From Streptomyces sp. AC555_RSS877 (GTDB lineage Bacteria; Actinomycetota; Actinomycetes; Streptomycetales; Streptomycetaceae), in contig NZ_JAGMUK010000054.1 in NCBI RefSeq assembly GCF_019049245.1, positions 124,001 through 188,000 of the forward strand: DNA of 64,000 nt, read 5' to 3'. This document shows positions 2,199-24,145 of this stretch, in pieces. The translations under genes and the position numbers were made by a program. Below the pieces are notes generated by a model. That model was given only the letters and a program-made list of their open reading frames with translations, was not told the origin of the DNA and ran no database searches. How positions within the stretch are numbered: the stretch's first letter is position 1; the number at the start of each line of letters is the position of its first letter.

Positions 2199-2217
2199 TT
2201 AGGCTAGGCTAACCTCA
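2199..2217 (+). promoter_or_regulatory. Strong iron box before cchF
   Basis: TTAGGCTAGGCTAACCTCA matches 17 of 19 positions of the TTAGGTTAGGCTAACCTAA iron-box consensus, the best match in the window. It lies 72 bp upstream of the cchF start and should bind the iron-dependent repressor DmdR1 when iron is plentiful. Confidence 0.88.
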
Positions 2218-11200: not shown

Positions 11201-14200
11201 GGTTCGTGGCGAACCCGTTCGCCGGCGACGGCTCCCGGATGTACCACACGGGCGACCTCGCCCGCCGCACCCTCGACGGCGAGCTGGAGTTCGCCGGCCG
11301 CGCCGACGACCAGGTCCAGCTCAAGGGCTTCCGGATCGAGTTGGGCGAGGTGGAGGCCGCGGTCAGGGAACTCGACGGCGTGGTCGACGTGGCCGTCACC
11401 GTGGCGGACAGCGGCGACCACCTGGTCGCGCACGTCGTGGGCCGGGTGCCCGGTGACCTCGTCGATTCGCTGTCCGCGAAGCTGCCCGTGCACATGGTGC
11501 CGGGCCGGGTGCTGCCGGTCGACGCGCTGCCGCTGACGGTCAACGGCAAGCTGGACCGGAAGGCTTTGATCGAGCGCGCGGCCGCGCCCCTTGGGGGCGC
11601 GGGGCTGAATCCATATGCGGCTCCGCCGCGGGGCGCGACCAGCCCCCACCGGCCCGCGGATTCGTCACCGGACTCCGCACTCGCTGCCCTGGTCGACGTC
11701 TTCGCCGACACCCTGCCCGGCACCGTCGTGGACGCCGACACCGACTTCTTCCGCGCCGGAGGCGACAGCATCGTCGCCATCACCGTGATCAACCGGGCCA
11801 GGGCGCTCGGCCTGCCGATCGCGCCACGGGACGTGTTCCTGTACAAGACCCCGCGCGCTCTCGCCGAACACCTGGCGACACACGCACCGCGCACACCGCA
11901 GGCCGCCGCGACCGCGCCCGCCCGCCGCGCGGACGGCCCACTGCCGCCCACGCCGATCATTCTGCGCCAGCGGGAACTCGGCGGATCGCTCGCCCGGTTC
12001 GCCCAGGCCAGGGCGCTGACGGCGCCCGAGGGCACCGGGTTCGCGGACGCCGGGCGCGCCGCGAACGCCGTCGTGGCCGCGCACCCGGCCCTCCGGCTGC
12101 GGCTGCGCGTCGAGCACGGGGTGTGGGCGCTGCGCACCGAACCCGCCCGCGAGGTCACCGTCGTACGACCGGACACGACCGACGCGGCGACGGCGGCGAA
12201 CGAGGCCGCCGGACGGCTCGACCCGGAGTCCGGGGACGTCATCGCGTTCTCGTGGCTGGAGACGAGCCGGACCCTGGTGGTCACCGTGCACCACCTGGCC
12301 GTCGACTCGGTGTCCTGGCTGGTCCTGCTGGACGACCTGGCCACCGCCCTGCGCGGTGAGCCCCTGGCACCGCCGACCACCTCCTACGCCGAATACGCCG
12401 AAGCACTGAACTCCCGGTCCACCGAGGTCATCGACGACCTCGGCCACTGGGCGACCACGCTCCGGGCCCCCGCGCTGCTGCCCGAGGTCGAGGGCCTGCG
12501 CGAGAGCACGGTCGTGCTCGCCCCCGAAGCGAGCGACCGCCTGACCCGCACCGCCCCCGCCGCATTCGGTGTCGGTCTCACCGAGTTGCTGTGCGGTGCC
12601 CTGCGCACCGCGCTGACCCGTGTCCAGCCGTCGCCCACCGATCTCGCGATCGAGCTGGAACGGCACGGCCGGGTGCCGGCGCTGGAGCACCACGACTACA
12701 CCCGTACGGTCGGGTGGTTCACCTCCATCGCCCCCGTACGGCTCACCGCGCACAGCGACCCCGTCGCGGCGGCACGCGAGGTGGCCGAACGCCAGCCGGA
12801 CGAGTGCGCGCACGTCGCCTACGGCCAACTCCGGTACCTCAACCCGCAGACGGCCTCGCTGCTGACAGCCCGCCCGCAGGTGCTGTTCAACTACCTCGGC
12901 CGGGGCAGCGAGTCCCAGGCGCTGCACATCACCGGCGGCGACCAGGGCAGCCCCTACGCCGTCGAGGTCAACGCGTGGACCGACGCGGCCACCGGAAGCC
13001 TGCACGCGGCGTTCACTCTCGCCGAGGGCATCCCCGACGAGATCACCGAACACTGGCTGAGCGCACTGGAACACCTCGCGGACGCCTCCGTGACGGCCGA
13101 GCGCACGGCACCGGTCACCCCGCTCCAGCGCGGTCTGTTCTTCCAGGCCCAGATGGCCGGCACGGCCGGACACTATGTCGCCCAGAGCTGGTTCACCTTC
13201 GACCGGCGCCTGGACACCGACGCGCTGGCCGAGGCGATGGCGTACGTGATCGCCCGTCATCCCGTCGTGGGCGCCGGCTTCACCACCGACGACGACGGGA
13301 ACCCGGTCCAGGTCCTCAGCGCCGGGAGACAAGTCACCGTCCGCACGGTCGAGTTGGCGACGGAGGCGGAGGTCGAGGCCCTGCGTGCCCGGGACCGTGA
13401 CACCGGCTTCGACCCGGGGGAGCCGCCGCTGATCCGGGTGACCGTGGTGCGCCTGCCCGAGGGCCGCGACGGCCTGCTGCTGAGCTACCACCTGCTGCTG
13501 TGGGACGGCTGGTCCCGCGAGATCGTGCTGCGGGACCTCTTCGACGCCTACCAGGCCGTCGTCGCGGGCGAGCCGCTGGACGCGGCCCCGGCCACGCCGA
13601 GCTTCGAGGACTACGCCCGGGCGCTCGACGCCAAGGACCCCGCCGTATCGGAACGCTTCTGGGCGGAGCACCTGGCCGGCCTCCCCGGCCCGACGCTGCT
13701 CGCCGGACCGGCGCCGTCCCTTCCGGACGAGCTGCCGCGCGCACTCGTGCACACCCTGTCCGCCGAACAGTCGGACCTGCTGCGGGAAGCGGCCAGGGCA
13801 CACGGCGTCACCCTGAACTCGGTGCTGACCGGCGCGTTCGGCCTGCTGCTCGGCGCGCACACGGGCCGCGGTGACGCCGTGTTCGGCGTGACCGTCTCCG
13901 GCCGGGAGGGCGAGGGCCTGGACGAGGTCGTCGGCGTGCTGCTCAACACCGTGCCCCTGTGGACGCGAGCACGGCCGGACGACACCGTCCGGGAGTACCT
14001 GACGGCCGTACAGGCGGCCAGGGTCGAGGCGATGGAGCATGAGCACCTGGGCCTCGGCGAGATCCAGCGGGCCAGCGGGCACGACACCCTGTTCGACAAC
14101 CTGTTCGTGCTCCAGAACTTCCTGGACCTGGACGCGTTCGCCGAGATGAACGCCCGGCACGGCATCACCTCGGTGAAGGCCGACGACTCCACCCACTATC

Positions 14201-16188
14201 CGTTCACGTGGGTCGTCACGCCCGGCGAACGGCTCACGGTCAAGCTTGAGCACCGCGACGGCGACACCGGGAGCGCTCGTCGTCTCCTCGACGACTACCT
14301 GCGCGTACTCGAGGACCTGGCCCGGACGACCGGTCCGGTCGGCGCCTTGCGGGGGCTGGGGCCCGAGCCCTCGCGGGAAGCGCGTACGGACGTCGGCACG
14401 GACACCGTCGTCGACCGGTTCGACCGGGCGGCGGACCGCGACCCGCAGCGGGTCGCGCTCGTCGCCCACGGCGAGACCATGACCTTCGCGGGGCTCCGGG
14501 ACCGCAGCCGTGCGGTGGCGGGTGTGCTCGCCCGGCGCGGCATCGGCCCCGAGACGACCGTGGGCCTCGCGATCCCGCGCTCGCTCGACTCGATCGTGGC
14601 GCTGTTCGCCGTACTGCGCGTCGGCGCCGCGTACGTGCCGCTGGAGCTGGACCACCCGGACGAGCGGATCGCCGCTATCGTCGCGGACGCACGCCCGGAG
14701 GTCATCCTCACGGTGAGTGCCGTATCGCCCCGGCTGACCGGCGATCGGGCGGACCTGATCGAGCTGGACCGCCCGCTGCCCGAGGCCGAGCCGTATCTCA
14801 CGTTCGCGCCGGACGACCCGGACCGCCTGCGGCACCCCGCGTACACCATCTACACCTCCGGATCGACCGGGAAGCCCAAGGGCGTGGTGACCGAGTACGC
14901 CGGGCTCACCAACATGCTGATCAACCACCAGCGCCGCATCTTCGAGCCGGTGCTGGCGCAGCACGGCCACCGGGTCTTCCGGATCGCGCACACCGTGTCG
15001 TTCGCGTTCGACATGTCGTGGGAGGAGCTGCTGTGGCTCGCCGACGGCCACGAGGTGCACATCTGTGACGAGGAACTGCGCCGCGACGCACCCCGGTTGG
15101 TCGAGTACTGCCTCGAACACGGCATCGACGTCATCAACGTGACCCCGACCTACGCACAACAGCTCGTCGCCGAGGGCCTGTTGGACAACCCGGCACGGCG
15201 GCCGGCACTGGTGCTGCTGGGCGGGGAGGCCGTCACCCCGACGCTGTGGCAGCGGCTCGCGGAGACCGAGGGGACGGTCGGCTACAACCTGTACGGACCC
15301 ACCGAGTACACCATCAACACCCTCGGCGTCGGCACCTTCGAATGCCAGGACCCGGTGGTGGGCGTCGCGATCGACAACACCGACGTGTACGTGCTGGATC
15401 CGTGGCTGCGTCCCCTGCCGGACAGGGTCCCAGGCGAGCTGTACGTGTCGGGCATCGGCATCGCGCGCGGCTATCTCGGGCAGCCCGCCCAGACCGCGCA
15501 CCGCTTCGTCGCCTGCCCCTTCGGCGCACCCGGCGAACGCATGTACCGCACCGGGGACCTGGTGATCCGGCGGCCCGACGGGAACCTGATGTACCTGGGC
15601 CGCACCGACCAGCAGGTCAAGATCCGCGGCCACCGGGTCGAACTCGGCGAGGTGGAGGCCTCGTTCGCGGCGCACCCGGCGGTGCGGTTCGTCGCCGCGG
15701 TCGCCCAGCCCGACCCGCAGGTCGACGGGGCGTACCGGCTGGCCGCCTACCTCGTGCTCGACGGCGCCGCCGATCTGGCGGCGGTCGCCGCCGAAGTGGG
15801 CGCCGGGCTGCCGGACTTCCTGCGCCCCACCCACTACGCCCAGGTCGACAGCATCCCGCTCACCGTGAACGGGAAGGCTGACACCAAGGCGCTGCCGGAG
15901 GCCAAGCCGCTGGGCGCGCTGACCACGGCGGCGGAGCGCGGCCCCGAGACCGAGACCGAGACCACGGTGTGCGAGTTCTTCGCCGAGGCACTGGACCTGG
16001 ACGACGACGAGGTGAGCGCGGTGAGCGACTTCGTGTCCCTCGGAGGACACTCCATGTTGGCGGTGCGGCTGATCGGGCTGCTCCGCCGGGAGTACGGCCC
16101 CGTGGTCACGATCCGTGACCTGTTCACCCTGCGAACCCCGGAAGCGATTGCCCGCCACCTCGATGACCACCACGATGACAACTCCTGA
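5203..16188 (+). CDS. cchH: Coelichelin nonribosomal peptide synthetase CchH (A-T-E-C-A-T-E-C-A-T)
   Basis: A 3661-residue trimodular NRPS. Residues 1-135 look like the tail of a condensation domain plus the C-A linker. Module 1: A1 (core [11 protein letters not shown] about 289), T1 LGGDS with Ser682, E1 with [10 protein letters not shown] and VLFNYLGRF. Module 2: C2 (His1329-His1330, Asp1334), A2 ([11 protein letters not shown] about 1779), T2 AGGDS with Ser2189, E2 with [10 protein letters not shown]. Module 3: C3 (YHLLLWDG, first His replaced by Tyr), A3 (about 3214), T3 LGGHS with Ser3617. No thioesterase follows. Specificity codes read as DINYWGGIGK, DFWNIGMVHK and DMENLGLINK, fitting formyl-hydroxy-Orn, Thr and hydroxy-Orn. 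E1 and E2 give D residues 1 and 2. All match coelichelin, whose tetrapeptide requires reuse of module 1. ATG 5203 is preceded by GGAAGGGG at an unusually long distance. Confidence 0.96.
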
Positions 16189-17878
16189 CACGCAGCGGCC
16201 CCACCCGGGGTCCGACATCCTCCGGACCGCACTGCGCCGCAACGTGGGCGCCATGGTCTGGGGCACCGTCCTCATGGGCCTGTACCAGGCGGGGGAGACC
16301 GCCTTCCCCATCGCGCTCGGCCTGATCGTCGAACACACGATGAAGGGGGACCGGAACCTCGGCTCGCTCGCCCTGTCCATCGGTGCGCTCGCCGTGATCA
16401 TCACGACCGTGTCGCTGTCGTGGCGGTTCGGGATGCGCATCCTGCAGAAGGCCAACACCACCGAGGCGCACCGCTGGCGGGTGCGGGTCGCGTCCTGCGG
16501 ACTCCAGCCGGTGGCCAGGGACGTCGACCTCAAGTCCGGTGAGGTGCTGACCATCGCCACCGAGGACGCCGACCAGACCGCCGACATCATCGAGGTGGTG
16601 CCGCTGCTGATCAGCTCGCTGGTCGCGGTCGTGATCGCGGCTGTCGCGCTGGGCCTGGCCGACGTCCGGCTCGGCCTGCTGGTGATCGTGGGAACCGTCG
16701 CGATCCTGTCGATCCTGAGCGTGATGTCCAAGCGGATCGGCGCCAGTACCCGCGAACAGCAGGCCCGGGTGGCGCGGGCGGGCGCCAAGGTCGCCGACCT
16801 GATCATCGGCCTGCGCCCGCTGCACGGCTTCGGCGGCAACCACGCGGCGTTCCGGTCCTACCGGAAGGTCAGCACGGAGGCGAAACACCAGGCGATCACC
16901 GTCGCCCGGGTGAACAGCGTGTACGCGGGCACCGCGCTGGCCCTCAACGCGGTCCTCGCCGCCGCCGTGACCCTGACGGCGGGCTGGCTGGCGTTCGAGG
17001 GCCGGATCACCATCGGGGAACTCGTCATGGCCGTGGGGCTGGCGCAGTTCATCATGGAACCGCTCAAACTGTTCTCGGAGATGCCGAAGTACGTGATGAT
17101 GGCCCGCGCCTCGGCCGAACGGATGGCGCTGGTGCTGACCGCGCCGCCGGTGACGACCCCTGGACCGCAGCGTCCGGCCGCGGGCGGGGACCTCGAAGTC
17201 GACTGCGTCCGGTACGGGCTGCTGCGCAAGCTGAAGTTGCAGGTGACCGCCGGCGAGTTCGTGGCGATCGCCGCCTACCAGCCGAGGGCGGCGGCCGACC
17301 TCGCGTCGATCCTGGCCGTGAGCGTGCCGCCGCACGCGTACGAGGGAGTGGTGCGGGTCAGCGGGCAGGAGATCGCGGACCTGTCGGTCGAGGCGGTCCG
17401 CGAGCACATGCTGGTGAACCCGTACGACGGGGAGATCTTCGCCGGTACCCTCCGGACGAACATCGACCCGTCGGGCACCAGCCGGATGATCCCCGAAGCC
17501 GTCGAGGCGTCCATGCTGACCGACGTCGTGGCCCTTCACCGCGAAGGCCTCGACCACGCCGTCCGCGACCGCGGCGCGAACCTCTCCGGCGGCCAGCGCC
17601 AACGGCTCTCCCTGGCCCGCGCCCTCGCCGCCGACACCGACGTCCTCGTCCTGCACAACCCGACCACAGCCGTCGACGCGGTCACCGAACAGCTCATCGC
17701 GCGCAACGTCGCGAAGCTGCGCCGGGGGCGCACCACCATCGTGATCACCAGCAGCCCGGCCCTCCTGGACGCCGCCGACCGTGTCCTCGTCCTGGAGGAC
17801 GGTGTCATCACCGCCGAGGGCACCCATCGCACCCTCCTGGCCACGGACGAGGACTACTGCCTGGCGGTGGCCCGGTGA
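16163..17878 (+). CDS. cchI: ABC exporter half-transporter CchI, intact signature, degenerate Walker A/B and H-loop
   Basis: A 571-residue exporter half with a six-helix membrane domain (about 1-315) and a nucleotide-binding domain. The Walker A position (about 369-381, [12 protein letters not shown]) has no GxxGxGK[ST]; Walker B reads VLVLHNPTT with His498-Asn499 in place of Asp-Glu; the H-loop His is Ser530. The signature LSGGQ (474-478) is perfect. It can therefore complete only the ATP site whose Walker motifs come from CchG. The gene overlaps the end of cchH by 26 nt (or 14 nt if the next ATG, 16175, is used), so it is co-translated with the synthetase. Confidence 0.9.
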
Positions 17879-18236
17879 CCCGCCGCAGCGGACGGTGGTC
17901 GCGGTCAAGCGCGTCTCGATGAACGCTTCTTGCACACTTTTCGGCCATGCCGGGGGTGCGCGGAGCGCCGCCGTCTCGGACGTTCCGCTGCCCGGATCGG
18001 CGACGGCCCGGGCGGCGTGTGGCGCGGATGAGCCGCTTCCGCGGCGGAAGTACAGGCCCCGTAAGGGGTATGTGAAGCACTTGCGTGCAAACGGGTCCGT
18101 AACCCACACCGCAGTACTTTAACCCTCACCGACCTCCGGCAAGCAGTGGCGCGATCTCGTTCCCCCGGGTCTCTGTTACCGGCGGTACCGACGTGCGCGC
18201 TGAGCTCTCCGCCCGGCGGACGAGAGGGGTTTCCCC
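17879..18236 (+). other. Intergenic region between cchI and the MHYT gene
   Basis: 358 bp without a convincing gene. It holds a small palindrome CTTCCG-CGG-CGGAAG (18036-18050) that may help end the cch transcript, followed by a less GC-rich stretch (18050-18125) likely to carry the promoter of the MHYT/kinase pair. No iron box, transposase fragment or obvious direct repeat shared with the other side of the pair was seen. Confidence 0.5.
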
Positions 18237-19049
18237 GTGGGACACATGGACCATTTCAGCGCCGGATGGGTCACCCCCGTCCTCTCCTACGTCATGGCCT
18301 GCGTCGGCTCGGCGCTCGGCCTGCGGTGCACGGTCAGGGCCCTGGAGGCCGACGGTGCCTCGAAACGGAACTGGCTGCTGCTGGCCTCGTTCGCGATCGG
18401 CTCCGGCATCTGGACCATGCACTTCGTCGCGATGATGGGCTTCGGCGTCGAGGGTACCCCGATCCGCTACGACGTCCCGCTCACCGTCCTCAGCCTCGTC
18501 ATCGCCATCGCCGTCGTCAGTGCCGGCGTCTTCACCGCCGGGTACGGGCGCTCGCGCGTCACGTCGGTGGCGCTCGGCGGGCTCGGCACCGGACTGGGCG
18601 TCGCCGCCATGCACTACACCGGCATGGCCGCGCTCAACCTGCACGGCACCGTCGTGTACGACCCGTTCCTCGTCGTCACCTCCGTCGTGATCGCCGTCGT
18701 CGCCGCGACCGCCGCGCTCACTCTCACCCTCATCGTGCGCGGTCCCGTCCTCGCGACCGCCGCCGCGCTCGTCATGGGGCTCGCGGTCAGCAGCATGCAC
18801 TACACCGCCATGTACGCCGTCGACGTCAGCCTCGCGCCCAGCAGCGCCGAGCTGCCCGGGGCCACGGCCACCGAGTTCCTCTTCCCGCTCGCCGTCGTGC
18901 TCGGCTCGTTCCTCTTCCTGACCTCCGCGTACGTCGCGCTCTCCCCGACCGGCAAGCGCGCCGAGTCCGTCGCCGCCGAACTGCTGCGCGAGGTCGAGCT
19001 CTCCACCGCGACCGCCGCCACGCCCGCCGCCACCAGCGCGACCGCCTGA
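18237..19049 (+). CDS. MHYT-domain integral membrane sensor protein
   Basis: A 270-residue membrane protein with seven predicted membrane segments and three MHYT-type motifs: TMHFVAMMGF, AAMHYTGMAAL and SSMHYTAMYAV. MHYT domains are thought to bind a metal, possibly copper, through these Met/His residues near the outer membrane face and to sense O2, CO or NO; that role is predicted for the family, not proven. The C-terminus is an Ala/Thr-rich tail with no output domain, so signalling must use a partner. The GTG start is 7 nt after GAGAGGGGT. The neighbouring kinase 47 bp downstream is the obvious partner. This pair is absent between cchI and cchJ in the described coelichelin locus. Confidence 0.85.
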   Translation: MGHMDHFSAGWVTPVLSYVMACVGSALGLRCTVRALEADGASKRNWLLLASFAIGSGIWTMHFVAMMGFGVEGTPIRYDVPLTVLSLVIAIAVVSAGVFTAGYGRSRVTSVALGGLGTGLGVAAMHYTGMAALNLHGTVVYDPFLVVTSVVIAVVAATAALTLTLIVRGPVLATAAALVMGLAVSSMHYTAMYAVDVSLAPSSAELPGATATEFLFPLAVVLGSFLFLTSAYVALSPTGKRAESVAAELLREVELSTATAATPAATSATA

Positions 19050-19096
19050 GCCGTACGTCCGCACAGCCGCACCGCACACTTTCGAAGAGGTATCCC

Positions 19097-21100
19097 ATGT
19101 CTGTCGCCCGTGCAACGGAACGGCTGCGTCCCAGATCGGTCCGGGCCAAGATCGTCGCCCTGCTCATGCTGCCCATCGTGTCCCTCATGGCGCTGTGGGG
19201 CTTCGCCGCGGTGACCACGGCCTCCAGCATCGGCGACACCGAGCGGGTCAAGGACGTCAACGCCGAACTCCTCGCCCCGGTCGACGAGTTCGTCACCGCG
19301 CTGCAGGCCGAGCGGACCGCCGGCGCACGCCGTGCCGCCGCGCCGGACCCGGCCGGCCTCGACGCGGTCGAGCAGGCCCGGAAGGCCACCGACAAGGCCG
19401 CCACCGCCTTCCGCAACGGCGCCGACGCCGCCACCGCGGACGCCGAGCTCCTCGACGCCGGACTGCCCGCCCGCATCGACCGCCTGGAGACCGACGCGGG
19501 CGGACTCACAGCGCTGCGCGCGCGGACCGACGCGAAGGGCGCCGCCCAGACGGCGTTCACGGGATACTCGACGGTCATCGAGCACGCCTTCGCCGTCACC
19601 GGCGCGCTCACCGGCGAGAACGGCACCCACGCCGCATCCGAGGCACGGGTCGTCCTCGAACTCGCCCGCGCCCGCGAGGCCGTGGCCCGGGAACAGGCCC
19701 TCCTCGCCGCGGGGAGCGGGGCCGGGAAACTCACCACGGAGCAGTACGCGCAGTTCGCCGGCGCCGTCGCCACCCAGCGGGAGCTCCTGAAGCCCGCGGT
19801 CGCGGATCTGAAACCGGCGCACCGGGCGGCGTACGACGCGGTGCTGAAGAGCGGGAGCTACGACAGTCTCGCGGCCGGCGAGGACCGGGTACGCGGCGCC
19901 GGACCCGGCACCCCGGTCGTCTCCGCGGACTTCCTGAGGGACTGGGACAACGCCGCCGACGCCGTGCTGAAGGGCCTCGCCGAGGCCCAGTCGGGAGCCG
20001 GTACGGGCGCCACGGCCAAGGCGAACCCCTTCGGCTGGGACACGCTGGGCGCCTCCGGCATCGCCGTCATCCTCGGCCTGGTGGGCGTGCTGCTGTCGCT
20101 GCTCGTGTCCGTGGGCGTCGGCCGCGGCCTCATCGTCGAACTGCTCGACCTGCGCAACTCCGCCCTGGAGGTCGCCGGACGCCGGCTGCCGCGGGCCATG
20201 CGCAGGCTGCACGCCGGGCAGGGCGTGGACATCGACGCCGAGGCCCCGATGCGCCGTCTCGTCGGCGACGAACTCGCCCAGGTGGGCAGCGCACTCACCG
20301 CCGTGCAGCGGGCCGCGCTCAAGGCCGCCTCCGAGCGCGCCGACCTGCTCCACGGCATCTCCGGCGTGTACGTCAGCCTCGCCCGTCGCAGCCAGGTGCT
20401 GCTGCACCGCCAACTCGACCTGCTCCACCAGCTGGAGCAGCGCCCGCGCGACCCGGCGGAGACGCACGACCTGTACCAGGTCGACTACCTCGCCACCCGG
20501 ATGCGCCGCCACTCCGAGAGCCTGCTCATCCTGTCCGGCGTCGCGCCCGGACGCGGCTGGCGCGACCCGATCCCGCTGGTGGACGTCCTGCGGGCCGCCG
20601 TCGCGGAGATCGAGCAGCCGGGCCGGGTCCAGATCTGGGCCGTCCCTCGCGTCTCCCTCCACGGCGGCGCCGTCGCGGACGTCATCCACCTGCTCGCCGA
20701 ACTCGTCGAGAACGCGGCCTCCTTCTCACCGCCCAGCGCCCCTGTCCAGCTGCGGGCCGGCCGGCTGCGCGACGGCCTCCTCCTCGAGATCGAGGACAGC
20801 GGCTTCGGCATGAACGAGGAGGCGATGGCCGAGGCCAACCGCAAGATCCAGTCCGAGAACGTCGACCTGCTCGACGCCAAGCAGATCGGACTCTTCGTGG
20901 TCAACCGCATCGCCGCCCGGCAGGGCCTGCGCGTCGAGCTGCGCGCCTCGGCGGGCGGCGGCGCCACGGCGGCCGTCCTCATCCGCGAGGACCTGATACG
21001 GGACGACATGCCGGTGCACGACGCGGCACTCCCCGACGGCCAGGACGGCGGCCGGGCACTGGCCCCCGCGTCGGCGTTGATCCCGCAGCAGCGAGGGTGA
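19097..21100 (+). CDS. Nitrate/nitrite-sensor-like histidine kinase, conservon CvnA type (orphan)
   Basis: A 667-residue membrane kinase. A first membrane helix (about 17-38) and a second (about 318-340) flank an extracytoplasmic helical NIT-like domain. A HAMP-like stretch and a DHp-like helix pair follow, with VDYLATRMRRHSESLLILSG at about 462-481, then a HATPase domain with N-box LAELVENAASFSPP (Asn539), G-box EDSGFGM (Asp567) and a late GLFVVNRIAARQG. The layout is that of the CvnA proteins of Streptomyces conservons, but no roadblock, DUF742 or Ras-like GTPase gene follows. The usual DHLATR motif reads DYLATR (Tyr464), so the phospho-acceptor is uncertain. A GAAGAGG site precedes the ATG. 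Confidence 0.85.
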   Translation: MSVARATERLRPRSVRAKIVALLMLPIVSLMALWGFAAVTTASSIGDTERVKDVNAELLAPVDEFVTALQAERTAGARRAAAPDPAGLDAVEQARKATDKAATAFRNGADAATADAELLDAGLPARIDRLETDAGGLTALRARTDAKGAAQTAFTGYSTVIEHAFAVTGALTGENGTHAASEARVVLELARAREAVAREQALLAAGSGAGKLTTEQYAQFAGAVATQRELLKPAVADLKPAHRAAYDAVLKSGSYDSLAAGEDRVRGAGPGTPVVSADFLRDWDNAADAVLKGLAEAQSGAGTGATAKANPFGWDTLGASGIAVILGLVGVLLSLLVSVGVGRGLIVELLDLRNSALEVAGRRLPRAMRRLHAGQGVDIDAEAPMRRLVGDELAQVGSALTAVQRAALKAASERADLLHGISGVYVSLARRSQVLLHRQLDLLHQLEQRPRDPAETHDLYQVDYLATRMRRHSESLLILSGVAPGRGWRDPIPLVDVLRAAVAEIEQPGRVQIWAVPRVSLHGGAVADVIHLLAELVENAASFSPPSAPVQLRAGRLRDGLLLEIEDSGFGMNEEAMAEANRKIQSENVDLLDAKQIGLFVVNRIAARQGLRVELRASAGGGATAAVLIREDLIRDDMPVHDAALPDGQDGGRALAPASALIPQQRG

Positions 21101-21122
21101 CGAGGACACGAGGACGCCGGGC

Positions 21123-21154
21123 AGCGGGCGGTAGCGCCGGCCCGGCGCCCCGCT
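21123..21154. terminator. Bidirectional hairpin between the kinase and cchJ
   Basis: Outer arms AGCGGG/CCCGCT enclose a perfect GCGCCGG-C-CCGGCGC core (21134-21148). It lies in the 67-bp gap between two convergent genes, where a shared terminator is expected. There is no U-tract. Confidence 0.5.
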
Positions 21155-21167
21155 CGCAGCTCCGCCC

Positions 21168-22259
21168 CTAGGCGAGAGCCCAGGCGACATCCCTGAGCAG
21201 GGCGTGACGCCAGCCCGCCCGGTCGTGGCCCGACGGTGACCGGGAGACCCGTACGGTCGCACCGGCCCCTTCCGCCAGGGTCTCGGTCAGTTCGCAGTGG
21301 GGCAGCATCCGCGTCTCGTGTTCTCCCACGTCGAACGCGACCCGCAGACCGGACAGGTCCGGGCGCTCCCGCAGGCGCGCGGCGATGGTGCCGCCGACCG
21401 GGCCGCCCAAGGGGTCGGCCAGGTCCGGGGCGTCGGGTGTCCACCAGAACGAGCCCGACTGGCAGGCGACGCGGGACACCAGGTCCGGGAACTCCAGAGC
21501 CGCGTACAGGGCGCTGAGCCCGCCGAGGCTCTGCCCGGCGACCACCAGCCGGTCCCGGTCCGCGGGTACGCCGGATTCCGCCACCAGCGGCAGCAGTTCG
21601 TCCCGGACCGCCTCCCACAGCTCGGGCGCGCACCCGAACTCGGTCCCCCTGTCCGTGGTCGGCAGGAAGACGAGCGTGACCGGCGGCAGCTCGCCGCCGG
21701 CGACGGCCGCGTCGAACGCGGTCATGGCCGGGTGCAGGTACAGCCAGTCGTCCCCGTCGAGCAGCAGGACCACCGGTCCGCCGCCGCCCGCCGGGTGGAC
21801 CCGCACGGTGCGCCGCCCGCCGAGCCGTGCGCTGTTCCAGCGGATCCGGGTGCGCGGGACGGGCAGCACGTCGTCGGCGCCGAGGTCGGGCCAGTGCGGC
21901 TGGGCCGGGGTGTCCGGGGTCGCGGCGATGGACCGGTCACCGCCCGCACCGGCCGGGTTGAGCGGGTCGGCGCAGGCCGCGTCGCCGACGAGGAACTGGT
22001 AGGTCACGCGCAGCCGCGGGGGCATGCGCACCTCGGCGTACCAGCAGTCCGTGTCGCCCCACCGGCGCAGCGGCACCGGCTCCGACCAGCTCTCGAAGCC
22101 GACGCTCGCCGGTTCGCAGCCGCGCCGCAGGAACAGGGTCACCCAGCCCTCGCCGTCGGGTATCGACGCGGGTGTCCTCGCGGTCGCCCAGAACGCGTCG
22201 GTGCCGGGTGCGCCGGGCAGTCCGAACGCGGCGAAGGTGTCTTCCCCCACCAACCTCAT
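21168..22259 (-). CDS. cchJ: Siderophore esterase CchJ (Fes/IroE-type alpha/beta hydrolase)
   Basis: A 363-residue cytoplasmic esterase of the enterochelin-esterase family. An N-terminal beta-sandwich (about 1-130) is followed by an alpha/beta-hydrolase domain with the nucleophile elbow GQSLGG (Ser244), an upstream VVLLLDGDDW strand and a late catalytic His region (SPSGHDRAGWRHAL). Because CchH lacks a thioesterase, this enzyme is the proposed release factor for the tetrapeptide; iron recovery by hydrolysis is an alternative for the family. A good ribosome site (AAGGAG) precedes the ATG. It is transcribed away from cchK through a shared region with iron boxes. Confidence 0.92.
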   Translation of the reverse strand: MRLVGEDTFAAFGLPGAPGTDAFWATARTPASIPDGEGWVTLFLRRGCEPASVGFESWSEPVPLRRWGDTDCWYAEVRMPPRLRVTYQFLVGDAACADPLNPAGAGGDRSIAATPDTPAQPHWPDLGADDVLPVPRTRIRWNSARLGGRRTVRVHPAGGGGPVVLLLDGDDWLYLHPAMTAFDAAVAGGELPPVTLVFLPTTDRGTEFGCAPELWEAVRDELLPLVAESGVPADRDRLVVAGQSLGGLSALYAALEFPDLVSRVACQSGSFWWTPDAPDLADPLGGPVGGTIAARLRERPDLSGLRVAFDVGEHETRMLPHCELTETLAEGAGATVRVSRSPSGHDRAGWRHALLRDVAWALA

Positions 22260-22287
22260 GAACGTCTCCTTGTGGAGCGGAAAGCGA

Positions 22288-22306
22288 GAAGGCTAAGCTC
22301 ACATTT
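22288..22306 (-). promoter_or_regulatory. Possible iron box on the cchJ side
   Basis: GAAGGCTAAGCTCACATTT matches about 11 of 19 consensus positions, with AGGCTAAGCTCAC as its best part. It lies 29 bp upstream of the cchJ start and next to a stronger box. Weak on its own. Confidence 0.4.
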
Positions 22307-22308
22307 GA

Positions 22309-22327
22309 TAAGGCGAGCCTAACCTTA
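22309..22327 (+). promoter_or_regulatory. Iron box in the cchJ-cchK divergent promoter
   Basis: TAAGGCGAGCCTAACCTTA matches about 14 of 19 positions of the DmdR/IdeR iron box, with a perfect GCCTAACCT half. It is 21 bp upstream of the cchK ATG and 50 bp from the cchJ ATG, so it could repress both directions under iron-replete conditions. Confidence 0.75.
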
Positions 22328-22347
22328 TTCCCCAGGAGGCACCGCAG

Positions 22348-22560
22348 ATGAGCACCAATCCCTTCGACGACGCCGACGGCCGTTTCCTCGTCCTCGTGAA
22401 CGACGAGGGCCAGCACTCGCTCTGGCCGTCCTTCGCCGAGGTGCCCGGAGGGTGGACGGTCGTCCTCGACGAGAACACCCGAGAGGCGTGTCTGGACTTC
22501 ATCGAGGCGAACTGGACCGACCTGCGCCCTCGGTCCCTCGCGACGTCCATGGACGCCTGA
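22348..22560 (+). CDS. cchK: MbtH-like protein CchK
   Basis: A 70-residue MbtH-family protein with all family landmarks: NPFDD at the start, a [12 protein letters not shown] strand-turn, GGW near residue 35 and the C-terminal [10 protein letters not shown]. MbtH proteins bind NRPS adenylation domains and are needed for their folding or activity, so this one is expected to serve CchH. The ATG is preceded by CAGGAGG. An iron box lies 21 bp upstream. The next gene starts 4 nt after its stop. Confidence 0.96.
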
Positions 22561-22564
22561 CCCC

Positions 22565-24145
22565 GTGGTGCTCTGCACCAGACTGACGAACGCCCGCTTC
22601 CTCACCATGGACCCCGGCCATCCCGTCGCCCACGACCTGGGCATCTGGCAGGGCCGGATCGTCGGCCTGGACGAGGCCGTCACCTCCCTGCCCGCACGCG
22701 AGGTGATCGACCTGCAGGGAGCCACCGTGCTGCCCGGGTTCATCGACGCCCACGTGCACCTGGCCTGGACCGGGTTCAAGGAGAACACCCCCAGCATCGA
22801 GGGGTGCACGCGGATCGACGACGTGCTCGCTGTCGTGGAGGAGGCCGTCCTCCGCAAGGGCACACCCGGAGCCTGGGTGAGCATCGCCGGATACGACCAG
22901 CGGGCCCTGGGACGTCATCTGACCGCCGCCGAACTCGACACGGTCAGCCACGGACACAAACTGTTCGTGCTGCACGACTCCGGGCACGGCTGCGTCGTCA
23001 ACTCCGCCGTGCTCGACCTGCTCCCCGCCGACCTCCCGCACGACGGCGGCTTCCTCGCCGAGGGCGCCATGGGCGCCGCCCGCGCACTACGCCTGCCGTA
23101 CTCCCAGCGGGAGTTGGCCGCGGCGATCGGGCGCGCCGCGCGGACCTGCCTGGCCGAGGGCGTCACCGCCTGCGCCGAGGCGGGCATCGGCGGCACCCTC
23201 CTGGGCCACAGCCCGGTCGAGCTGGGCGCCTACCAACTCGCCCGCGAAGAAGACCTGTTACCGCTGCGCGTGCAGCTCATGGTGTCCGCCGACCGGCTGC
23301 ACCCGGTCGCCGCACACGAGGCCGACGGCATTCCGCGGTCCCTCGACCTCGGCCTGCGCACCGGGTTCGGCGACGACCGGCTCTGTGTGGGCGCGCTGAA
23401 GATCTTCACCGACGGCGGCATGATGGCCCGGACCGCCGCGCTCACCAGCCCCTACGAAGGACTCGGCCACGCAGGCCAGTTGCAGGACGACCCGGACGTG
23501 CTCGCGGACACGATCGTCGACGGCCACCTCGCCGGATGGCAGCTCGCCGTCCACGCCATCGGCGACCGCGCCGCCGACATCGCCCTGGACGCCCTGGAAC
23601 GCGCCCAGCGCCTGCGGCCGCGCCCCGGCGCCCGGCACCGCATCGAGCACGCCGGCCTGATCCGCCCCGACCAGCTCCCGCGCTTCGCACGGCTCGGTGT
23701 CAGCGCGGTCGTCCAGCCCAACTTCCTGCGCTACTTCGGCGACGACTACGCGGCGATCATGGGGGAGGAGCGGGCCCCGTGGCTCTACCGCGGCAGGGCG
23801 TTCCTGGACCAGGGCATCACGCTCGTCGGCAGTTCCGACCGCCCCGTCACGGACGGATCCCCGCTGCGAGCCATCCAGTTCATGGTCGAGCGGGCCTCCG
23901 AGTCCGGCCAGGTGATCGGCCCCGACGAGGCCCTCACCGTCGACGAGGCCCTGCGCGCCTACACGGTCGCCGGCGCCTTCGCCTGCCACTGGGACGACCG
24001 CCTCGGCAGCCTCACCCCAGGCAAGCTCGCCGACCTCGTCGTGCTCGGCGACGACCCCCGGCGCGTCGATCCGTCACGCATCGCAGACATCGAGGTCGTG
24101 GCGACATACGTCGACGGCCGCTGGACAGGAAAGGCGGCGCCGTGA
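22565..24145 (+). CDS. Amidohydrolase family 3 (YtcJ/NfdA-like) metal-dependent hydrolase
   Basis: A 526-residue cytoplasmic TIM-barrel amidohydrolase. The metal-binding HxH is in GFIDAHVHLAWTG; later conserved elements are QLAVHAIGDRAAD, ARHRIEHAGLI and the catalytic-Asp region GSSDRPVTDGSP. Family 3 includes N-substituted formamide deformylases; substrates of most members are unknown. The GTG lies 4 nt after cchK, so it is almost certainly on the iron-regulated transcript. Since coelichelin carries N-formyl groups, a role in processing the siderophore is conceivable but unproven. It contains a TTA leucine codon (23258-23260, residue 232), making it a candidate for bldA-dependent translation. 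Confidence 0.85.
   Translation: MVLCTRLTNARFLTMDPGHPVAHDLGIWQGRIVGLDEAVTSLPAREVIDLQGATVLPGFIDAHVHLAWTGFKENTPSIEGCTRIDDVLAVVEEAVLRKGTPGAWVSIAGYDQRALGRHLTAAELDTVSHGHKLFVLHDSGHGCVVNSAVLDLLPADLPHDGGFLAEGAMGAARALRLPYSQRELAAAIGRAARTCLAEGVTACAEAGIGGTLLGHSPVELGAYQLAREEDLLPLRVQLMVSADRLHPVAAHEADGIPRSLDLGLRTGFGDDRLCVGALKIFTDGGMMARTAALTSPYEGLGHAGQLQDDPDVLADTIVDGHLAGWQLAVHAIGDRAADIALDALERAQRLRPRPGARHRIEHAGLIRPDQLPRFARLGVSAVVQPNFLRYFGDDYAAIMGEERAPWLYRGRAFLDQGITLVGSSDRPVTDGSPLRAIQFMVERASESGQVIGPDEALTVDEALRAYTVAGAFACHWDDRLGSLTPGKLADLVVLGDDPRRVDPSRIADIEVVATYVDGRWTGKAAP

Follow-up and report, generated by a model that had tools for sequence, protein, structure and literature searches.

The coelichelin (cch) locus of Streptomyces sp. 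AC555_RSS877 raises the question of why two signaling genes stand between cchI and cchJ. The locus lies in a stretch of 64,000 nucleotides (contig NZ_JAGMUK010000054.1, positions 124,001 to 188,000; G+C content, 71.5%), referred to here as the window. The two genes encode an MHYT membrane protein and a NIT-type sensor kinase that resembles CvnA, the kinase of the actinobacterial G-protein systems called conservons. The original prediction, made from the sequence alone, was that a sensor of O2, NO, or metal embedded in a siderophore locus could link redox or nitrogen-oxide signals to iron uptake, with a chance insertion as the fallback. The present analysis supports the fallback. The position of the pair in this cch cluster is most likely accidental, because the pair is self-contained, lies elsewhere in most carriers, and is missing from most cch clusters. 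We consider it probable that the pair is an orphaned conservon input module, in which the MHYT protein modulates the kinase, and that it was inserted in cch by chance. The genes and domains concerned are as follows, with positions counted in the window.

16178 to 17878, plus strand: cchI-type ABC exporter, the left neighbor (start uncertain; the longest open reading frame begins at 16115).
18237 to 19049, plus strand: MHYT membrane protein, 270 amino acids (PF03707, three stretches, E value of 3.4e-41).
19097 to 21100, plus strand: NIT-type CvnA-like sensor kinase, 667 amino acids, without adjacent cvnB-D (Pfam and fold match).
19289 to 20002, plus strand: NIT domain of the kinase, residues 65 to 302 (PF08376, E value of 9.6e-35).
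20405 to 20407, plus strand: codon for His437 of the kinase, in the first helix of the predicted DHp hairpin (alignment).
20486 to 20488, plus strand: codon for Tyr464 of the kinase, at the position of the LDH-motif His of the MHYT-conservon CvnA (alignment).
20678 to 20983, plus strand: HATPase_c domain of the kinase, residues 528 to 629 (Pfam, E value of 1.1e-8).
21168 to 22259, minus strand: cchJ-type esterase, the right neighbor, convergent (Pfam).

The predicted two-gene cassette between cchI and cchJ was found at exactly the coordinates given before, with Pfam matches for both products. It is co-directional with cchI and opposite to cchJ. The end of cchI is separated from the start of the MHYT gene by 358 bp, the MHYT gene from the kinase gene by 47 bp, and the end of the kinase gene from the cchJ stop by 67 bp. 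The G+C content at third codon positions is 0.96 for the MHYT gene and 0.94 for the kinase gene, close to that of cchI (0.94) and cchJ (0.93); therefore, the pair is not compositionally foreign.

The MHYT protein scored 139.5 bits against PF03707 (curated cut-off, 21) in three stretches. Its structural model (mean predicted local distance difference test score of 85) shows a C-terminal helix in addition to seven helices long enough to span the membrane. Three MHYT-type motifs are located at His62, His126, and His188. Their Met and His residues are kept in at least 95% of 104 sequences, as is the Tyr of the second and third motifs among these relatives. A sequence search of the PDB found no relative of this protein, and a fold search of the PDB gave no match with an E value of <0.001 (best E value, 0.1). 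The second gene was correctly predicted to encode a CvnA-like kinase with a NIT outer domain, as judged from its NIT and HATPase_c profiles and its resemblance to CvnA. The NIT profile gave 121.5 bits (cut-off, 24.9), and superposition of residues 31 to 310 on the NIT fold of NasR (4akk) aligned 270 residues with a Z score of 27.6 and a root mean square deviation of 3.6. A NIT-domain profile search of PDB sequences gave no match that would allow comparison of the nitrate-binding residues of NIT (PMC7496416), and a PDB sequence search with the kinase matched only the catalytic regions of QseC and PhoR.

The distribution of the pair was analyzed in a sample of 246 genomes, called Streptomyces because the named relatives in the kinase scan belong to this genus, save Actinobacteria bacterium OK074. 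An MHYT match at an E value of ≤1e-30 was obtained in 211 of the 246 genomes. An ortholog of the present MHYT protein was found in 18, our own genome included, with 84 to 95% identity outside the own genome; the next match listed has 71%. In all 30 loci returned, including the one in the window, the 1.5-kb flank of the MHYT gene contained a kinase match on the same strand. This pairing and the ratios of nonsynonymous to synonymous substitution (dN/dS) of the six cch-located copies given below show that the two genes are not chance open reading frames. Fifteen of the 18 loci lie in a core block, one (G177) lies between cytochrome b561 and gntP permease genes, and two (our own genome, G000, and G140) lie in cch. 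The core block consists of genes for a mannosyltransferase, a TP-methylase, a tatD-type protein, a G5/transglycosylase protein, a ksgA-type protein, and an ispE-type protein, followed by the pair, often an amidase gene, and an ABC-F-type gene (families from Pfam, gene names by inference). A kinase scan of public genomes returned 48 loci in named records: 40 at ispE/ABC-F, 3 at cytochrome b561/gntP, 4 in cch (S. africanus, S. sp. V4I2, S. violaceus NRRL B-2867, and S. coeruleorubidus), and 1 elsewhere (S. scabichelini). The 40 were assigned by the presence of ispE and/or ABC-F in view, and they include L111 (at a contig edge, without MHYT) and S. tailanensis. The genus-sample and named-record sets overlap, and some contigs are identical. 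Thus, the pair does occur beside unrelated genes, at ispE/ABC-F in 40 of the 48 named-record loci. In our own genome, the ispE and ABC-F matches are 275 bp apart, without the pair (L138).

Two side observations concern related loci. In S. tailanensis, a 77-residue kinase match follows ispE (L136:8001-8231) with no MHYT match; it is probably a decayed copy of the pair. G008 carries a more distant MHYT-kinase pair (L087:8968-11949 and 12601-14238; 72% and 56% identity) with no adjoining member of the CvnB-D families; by Pfam, the product of the next called gene is a toxin-type protein, ADP-ribosyltransferase-like and lectin-bearing.

The cchI-cchJ interval was then compared across genomes, as proposed with the original prediction. 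cchJ is present in 54 of the 246 genomes. In 45 of these, the interval is ≤261 bp (with one overlap of 71 bp), in 7 it measures 735 to 4,837 bp and holds other genes, and in 2 it holds the cassette. The statement that cchI lies beside cchJ in the described coelichelin locus thus holds, and in S. coelicolor the 3' untranslated region of cchI (sco0491) runs into cchJ (sco0490), according to the available part of PMC3765725. With the four named cassette carriers added, 58 loci were compared. cchI and cchJ are convergent in all 58, and the cchI beside cchJ in the other 57 is 84 to 95% identical to our own copy. The seven genomes with other inserts in the junction are G042, G052, G065, G070, G072, G200, and G232 (L238, L214, L237, L216, L221, L139, and L219, respectively). 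One protein from each of four of these inserts was assigned by Pfam as acetyltransferase-like, acyltransferase, NAD(P)H-binding, or AraC-type; the acetyltransferase match of G042 is below the Pfam cut-off, and the remaining inserts were assigned by inspection or left unnamed. Because seven genomes carry other genes there, the convergent 3'-3' junction tolerates inserts.

These data bear on the proposal that the pair is dedicated to regulating the production or uptake of coelichelin and links O2, NO, copper, or nitrogen-oxide signals to iron acquisition. The pair is absent from 52 of the 54 sampled cch loci, and most named-record kinase loci occupy the unrelated core position. Carriage of the pair and carriage of cch are not associated (3 of 18 genomes with the pair carry cch, compared with 51 of 228 of the others; odds ratio, 0.69; Fisher P value of 0.77, without kinship correction), and in G128, which has both, they are about 3.2 Mb apart. 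In addition, other genes occupy this junction in seven genomes, the search for an iron box near the pair was negative, and the cassette is patchily distributed on the cch tree. In favor of a regulator, the pair lies on the cchI strand in six of six cch copies, it is full-length and constrained in these six genomes, cassette carriers cluster on the cch tree (6 of 500 label shuffles needed as few changes), and no terminator was recognized in the gap 5' of the pair. Locus counts, co-occurrence statistics, and trees together led us to reject the pair as a dedicated cch regulator; we regard this role as very improbable, and the functional link of redox or nitrogen-oxide signals to coelichelin is not supported.

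The preferred reading, a conservon-derived module inserted by chance, is in line with the history of the cassette. In the tree of MHYT and kinase, the six cch copies form a group (Shimodaira-Hasegawa-like approximate likelihood-ratio test support, 90), to which the three b561/gntP copies are linked with a support of 95 and S. scabichelini with a support of 100; for this tree, 14 of the 56 conservon rows having both proteins were used, and the long row L134, with a broken kinase, was kept. The tree of cchI and cchJ requires at least four gains or losses of the cassette, and empty loci are strongly placed among the carriers. Because the cchI-MHYT intergenic region aligns across the six cch carriers, one original insertion followed by losses or exchange is favored. 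An exchange was observed between S. africanus and S. violaceus. The synonymous distance (dS, a simple Nei-Gojobori count) between these strains is 0.04 for the MHYT gene and 0.07 for the kinase gene, compared with 0.28 each for cchI and cchJ, and a local step in identity matches this contrast. These results indicate that the cassette was exchanged between cch loci. Pairwise dN/dS among the six cch-located copies was 0.11 to 0.36 for MHYT, 0.29 to 0.55 for the kinase, 0.16 to 0.32 for cchI, and 0.21 to 0.34 for cchJ. In all six genomes, the cch-located genes start and end at the expected places and are full-length, and decay of these copies was rejected. A transposon or plasmid origin of the cassette was also considered and found unsupported: no transposase occurs among the three scanned neighbors of the pair, comparison of 17879-18060 with 21101-21230 revealed no shared direct repeat of 9 to 14 bp and one 11-bp inverted match, and no plasmid record covers 80% of the cassette. 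A search of plasmid-encoded proteins retrieved 178 records with MHYT relatives, none of which reached 60% identity.

The probable parent system of the pair can be recognized in the paralogous MHYT loci. These loci (L142 to L197 and the copy in our own genome) mostly have the gene order MHYT, NIT-type CvnA, roadblock, DUF742, GTPase and are referred to here as the MHYT-led conservon. In all 56 sampled paralogous loci, which are the best-scoring rows of the MHYT search and not a random draw, a CvnA-like kinase is encoded on the same strand, within 800 bp in 55. The script rule for a complete roadblock/DUF742/GTPase set is satisfied by 52 of the 56; of the four exceptions, L181 fails the distance rule only, and L147, L158, and L183 are without a detected GTPase. 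The conservon-type MHYT class was defined by E value, and neighborhoods were checked in the 56 loci plus our own copy. Our own genome has the full set on G000:C115 (L086:6372-11320), with the GTPase gene named ATP_bind_1 by Pfam, and the CvnA of this conservon is the closest own-genome paralog of the orphan kinase (47%). Beside the orphan pair, no roadblock, DUF742, or GTPase probe match of ≥90 bits was found in 48 orthologous loci, some of which end at contig edges; the next gene downstream of the pair in the window is the convergent cchJ esterase. Searches of the open-access literature found no description of an MHYT-led conservon, and the word "MHYT" does not occur in the main text of PMC13343842.

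Further relatives are present in our own genome. Two additional MHYT proteins (54% and 50% identity; L140:5012-5689 and L141:6223-6954) had no kinase match within the 12 to 13 kb fetched around them. Two CvnA-like kinase regions (G000:C240:87124-88656 and G000:C217:121094-122962) have no DUF742 match at either place; a roadblock match adjoins the first.

The kinase itself poses the question of how it would signal. Residues 418 to 635 match the histidine-kinase core fold, with low model confidence in the DHp region. Two rows (268 and 83 residues) were dropped from the kinase alignment, and one of its 39 "core" rows, L098, lies outside the core site. His437 is conserved as His across the 105 orphan and MHYT-conservon kinases aligned and is present in 4 of 13 own-genome CvnA paralogs. 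Position 464 is Tyr in 46 of 48 orphan kinases and His in the other two, both cch copies; all 57 MHYT-conservon kinases and 11 of the 13 own-genome CvnA paralogs have the corresponding LDH-motif His. The Tyr464 contrast favors the idea that the orphan kinase has given up phosphotransfer and serves as a DivL-like allosteric or ATPase-only partner of MHYT. DivL was third in the kinase fold list (Z score of 16.6), with ordinary kinases scoring about equally. The conserved first-helix His437 could, however, be the acceptor, although few of the own-genome CvnA paralogs keep it, and two cch copies have His at 464. His183 of CvnA8 was functionally tested and is called "highly conserved" in the available part of PMC13343842. 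Membrane distance, judged on one CvnF-linked paralog (L203), favors His437 as the counterpart of this residue; the "highly conserved" wording favors the LDH position. Overall, we consider the loss of phosphotransfer unlikely. A Pfam scan found no receiver domain in the pair, in cchI, in cchJ, or in the amidohydrolase beyond, and no response regulator neighbors the pair.

Two further features bear on expression of the pair.

18050 to 18236, plus strand: conserved leader of the cassette, likely its own promoter/operator region (22 aligned upstream regions).
2199 to 2217, plus strand: iron-box-like site outside the cassette, heading the co-directional cch genes that end in cchI (two mismatches to the consensus).

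The leader is mostly common to the cch, S. scabichelini, and cytochrome b561/gntP copies and partly shared by the core-locus copies (22 upstream regions aligned; 2 of 24 were dropped for a missing start motif). Since it is common to copies across locations, the unit appears to take its own control region along when it moves. It contains an imperfect GTTACC-type palindrome, GTTACCGGCGGTACC, at 18175-18189, which has similar counterparts in many core-locus copies and is a candidate operator; in the G140 leader, the palindrome GTTACCGGCGGTAAC is perfect but for the center base. For the iron-box-like site, none was expected by shuffling, and same-strand open reading frames follow from 2289. At up to three mismatches to the consensus, it is the sole match in the window and lies about 16 kb upstream of the pair, in agreement with the earlier claim that neither cassette gene has an iron box.

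This arrangement allows a position effect, in which the pair is no cch component and gains iron-responsive expression by read-through from the operon ending in cchI, while separating cchI from cchJ. The pair follows cchI in the same direction in all six cch copies, and the only iron-box-like site found stands ahead of the genes ending in cchI. No sigma-70-type promoter or terminator was found in 17500-22600, although the scan is crude for Streptomyces, and folding at 17876-18060 after cchI is no better than that of shuffled sequence (z, -0.29). The S. coelicolor cchI transcript that extends into cchJ (PMC3765725, available in part) also fits. In the six carriers, read-through from cchI would enter the sense strand of the MHYT gene, and the overlap of cchI with cchJ would be broken. 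However, this explanation presumes one iron-controlled operon from 2289 to cchI, the conserved leader suggests a promoter belonging to the pair, and the overlap is reported for S. coelicolor only. We regard such read-through as possible but doubtful. The iron link that remains is a testable position effect and not a designed coupling.

Returning to the orphaned conservon module, we propose that MHYT and the kinase form one functional unit, whose cvnB-D genes may have been lost. The seven-helix MHYT protein would most likely bind copper through its MHYT motifs and sense a diatomic gas or the redox or copper state of the membrane. It may modulate the adjacent kinase much as CvnF8 modulates CvnA8; CvnF8 binds CvnA8 and stimulates its ATPase activity and autophosphorylation (PMC13343842, available in part). 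The kinase could combine this input with the ligand of its outer NIT domain. Roadblock, DUF742, and GTPase genes follow the paralogs but not the pair itself; its output would therefore be exerted in trans, possibly through the CvnB-D proteins of the complete MHYT conservon that this genome also has. Such output is plausible because conservon-range MHYT proteins occur in at least 17 of 18 genomes with the orphan pair, compared with 131 of 228 of the others (P value of 0.002), a comparison in which the 17 of 18 were read by eye, the class of the 131 was set by E value alone, and kinship is uncorrected. Moving with its leader as a self-contained cassette, the pair probably entered the permissive 3'-3' gap that separates cchI from cchJ a single time, in one group of Streptomyces, and has since been lost or exchanged between strains. 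The pair would be no component of coelichelin biosynthesis.

Besides these qualifications of the co-occurrence, several observations weigh against this explanation. The cassette is more clustered on the cch tree than expected by chance (4 changes, compared with a shuffled mean of 5.8), and among the cch copies, constraint is weaker on the kinase than on MHYT, cchI, or cchJ. Because of this clustering and the full-length genes in six genomes, some local benefit in cch is possible. The NIT domain of the kinase is intact, unlike in most accessory-linked CvnA proteins of the available part of PMC13343842, and the analogy to CvnF is therefore inexact. Finally, Tyr464 replaces the conserved His of conservon CvnA, so the kinase may not use ordinary phosphotransfer.

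A bolder proposal joins several of these elements. In it, MHYT proteins would be a third type of accessory input, so far undescribed, to conservon kinases that keep NIT, and in several Streptomyces this module would have been released from its conservon as a two-gene cassette that signals in trans to CvnB-D of the resident MHYT conservon. Behind cchI, read-through would tie gas or copper input to iron status without an iron box of the cassette's own, rewiring the G-protein relay by position. We consider this combination improbable.

A link between gas sensing and siderophore control, tempting as it is, is not supported by this analysis. The analysis also brings to light an MHYT-led conservon of five genes, which recurs in the genus as sampled and is apparently undescribed. 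Input ligands of conservons are treated as open in the available part of PMC13343842; if MHYT proteins do feed conservon kinases, these ligands could be tested with copper, CO, O2, and NO. A regulator inside a biosynthetic cluster can be a passenger at a permissive convergent junction.

In the MHYT-LytTR regulator CoxC of Afipia carboxidovorans, the MHYT domain senses CO and copper is needed (PMC11347149, available in part). In CoxC, MHYT is fused to a DNA-binding domain; in the present pair, it forms a protein of its own, with a kinase as partner. The NIT fold of the outer domain is shared with NasR (4akk), but NasR, an antiterminator of transcription, carries an RNA-binding ANTAR domain, and the present protein is a kinase. 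With respect to CvnA-D conservons, the kinase is a CvnA homolog with an adjoining gene for a likely accessory input. The accessories described in the available part of PMC13343842 are CvnE (P450) and CvnF (GAF), overwhelmingly beside a CvnA lacking a sensory domain; here the accessory is an MHYT membrane protein, and the kinase keeps its NIT domain. A further counterpart is the MHYT-led conservon, whose first two genes and their order are those of the orphan pair (MHYT 63 to 70% and kinase 46 to 57% identical in 56 loci). The orphan pair differs in that CvnB-D are absent, the kinase has 667 amino acids compared with 844 in the conservon copy of our own genome, and the LDH-motif position is mostly Tyr in the orphan kinases and His in the MHYT-conservon kinases.

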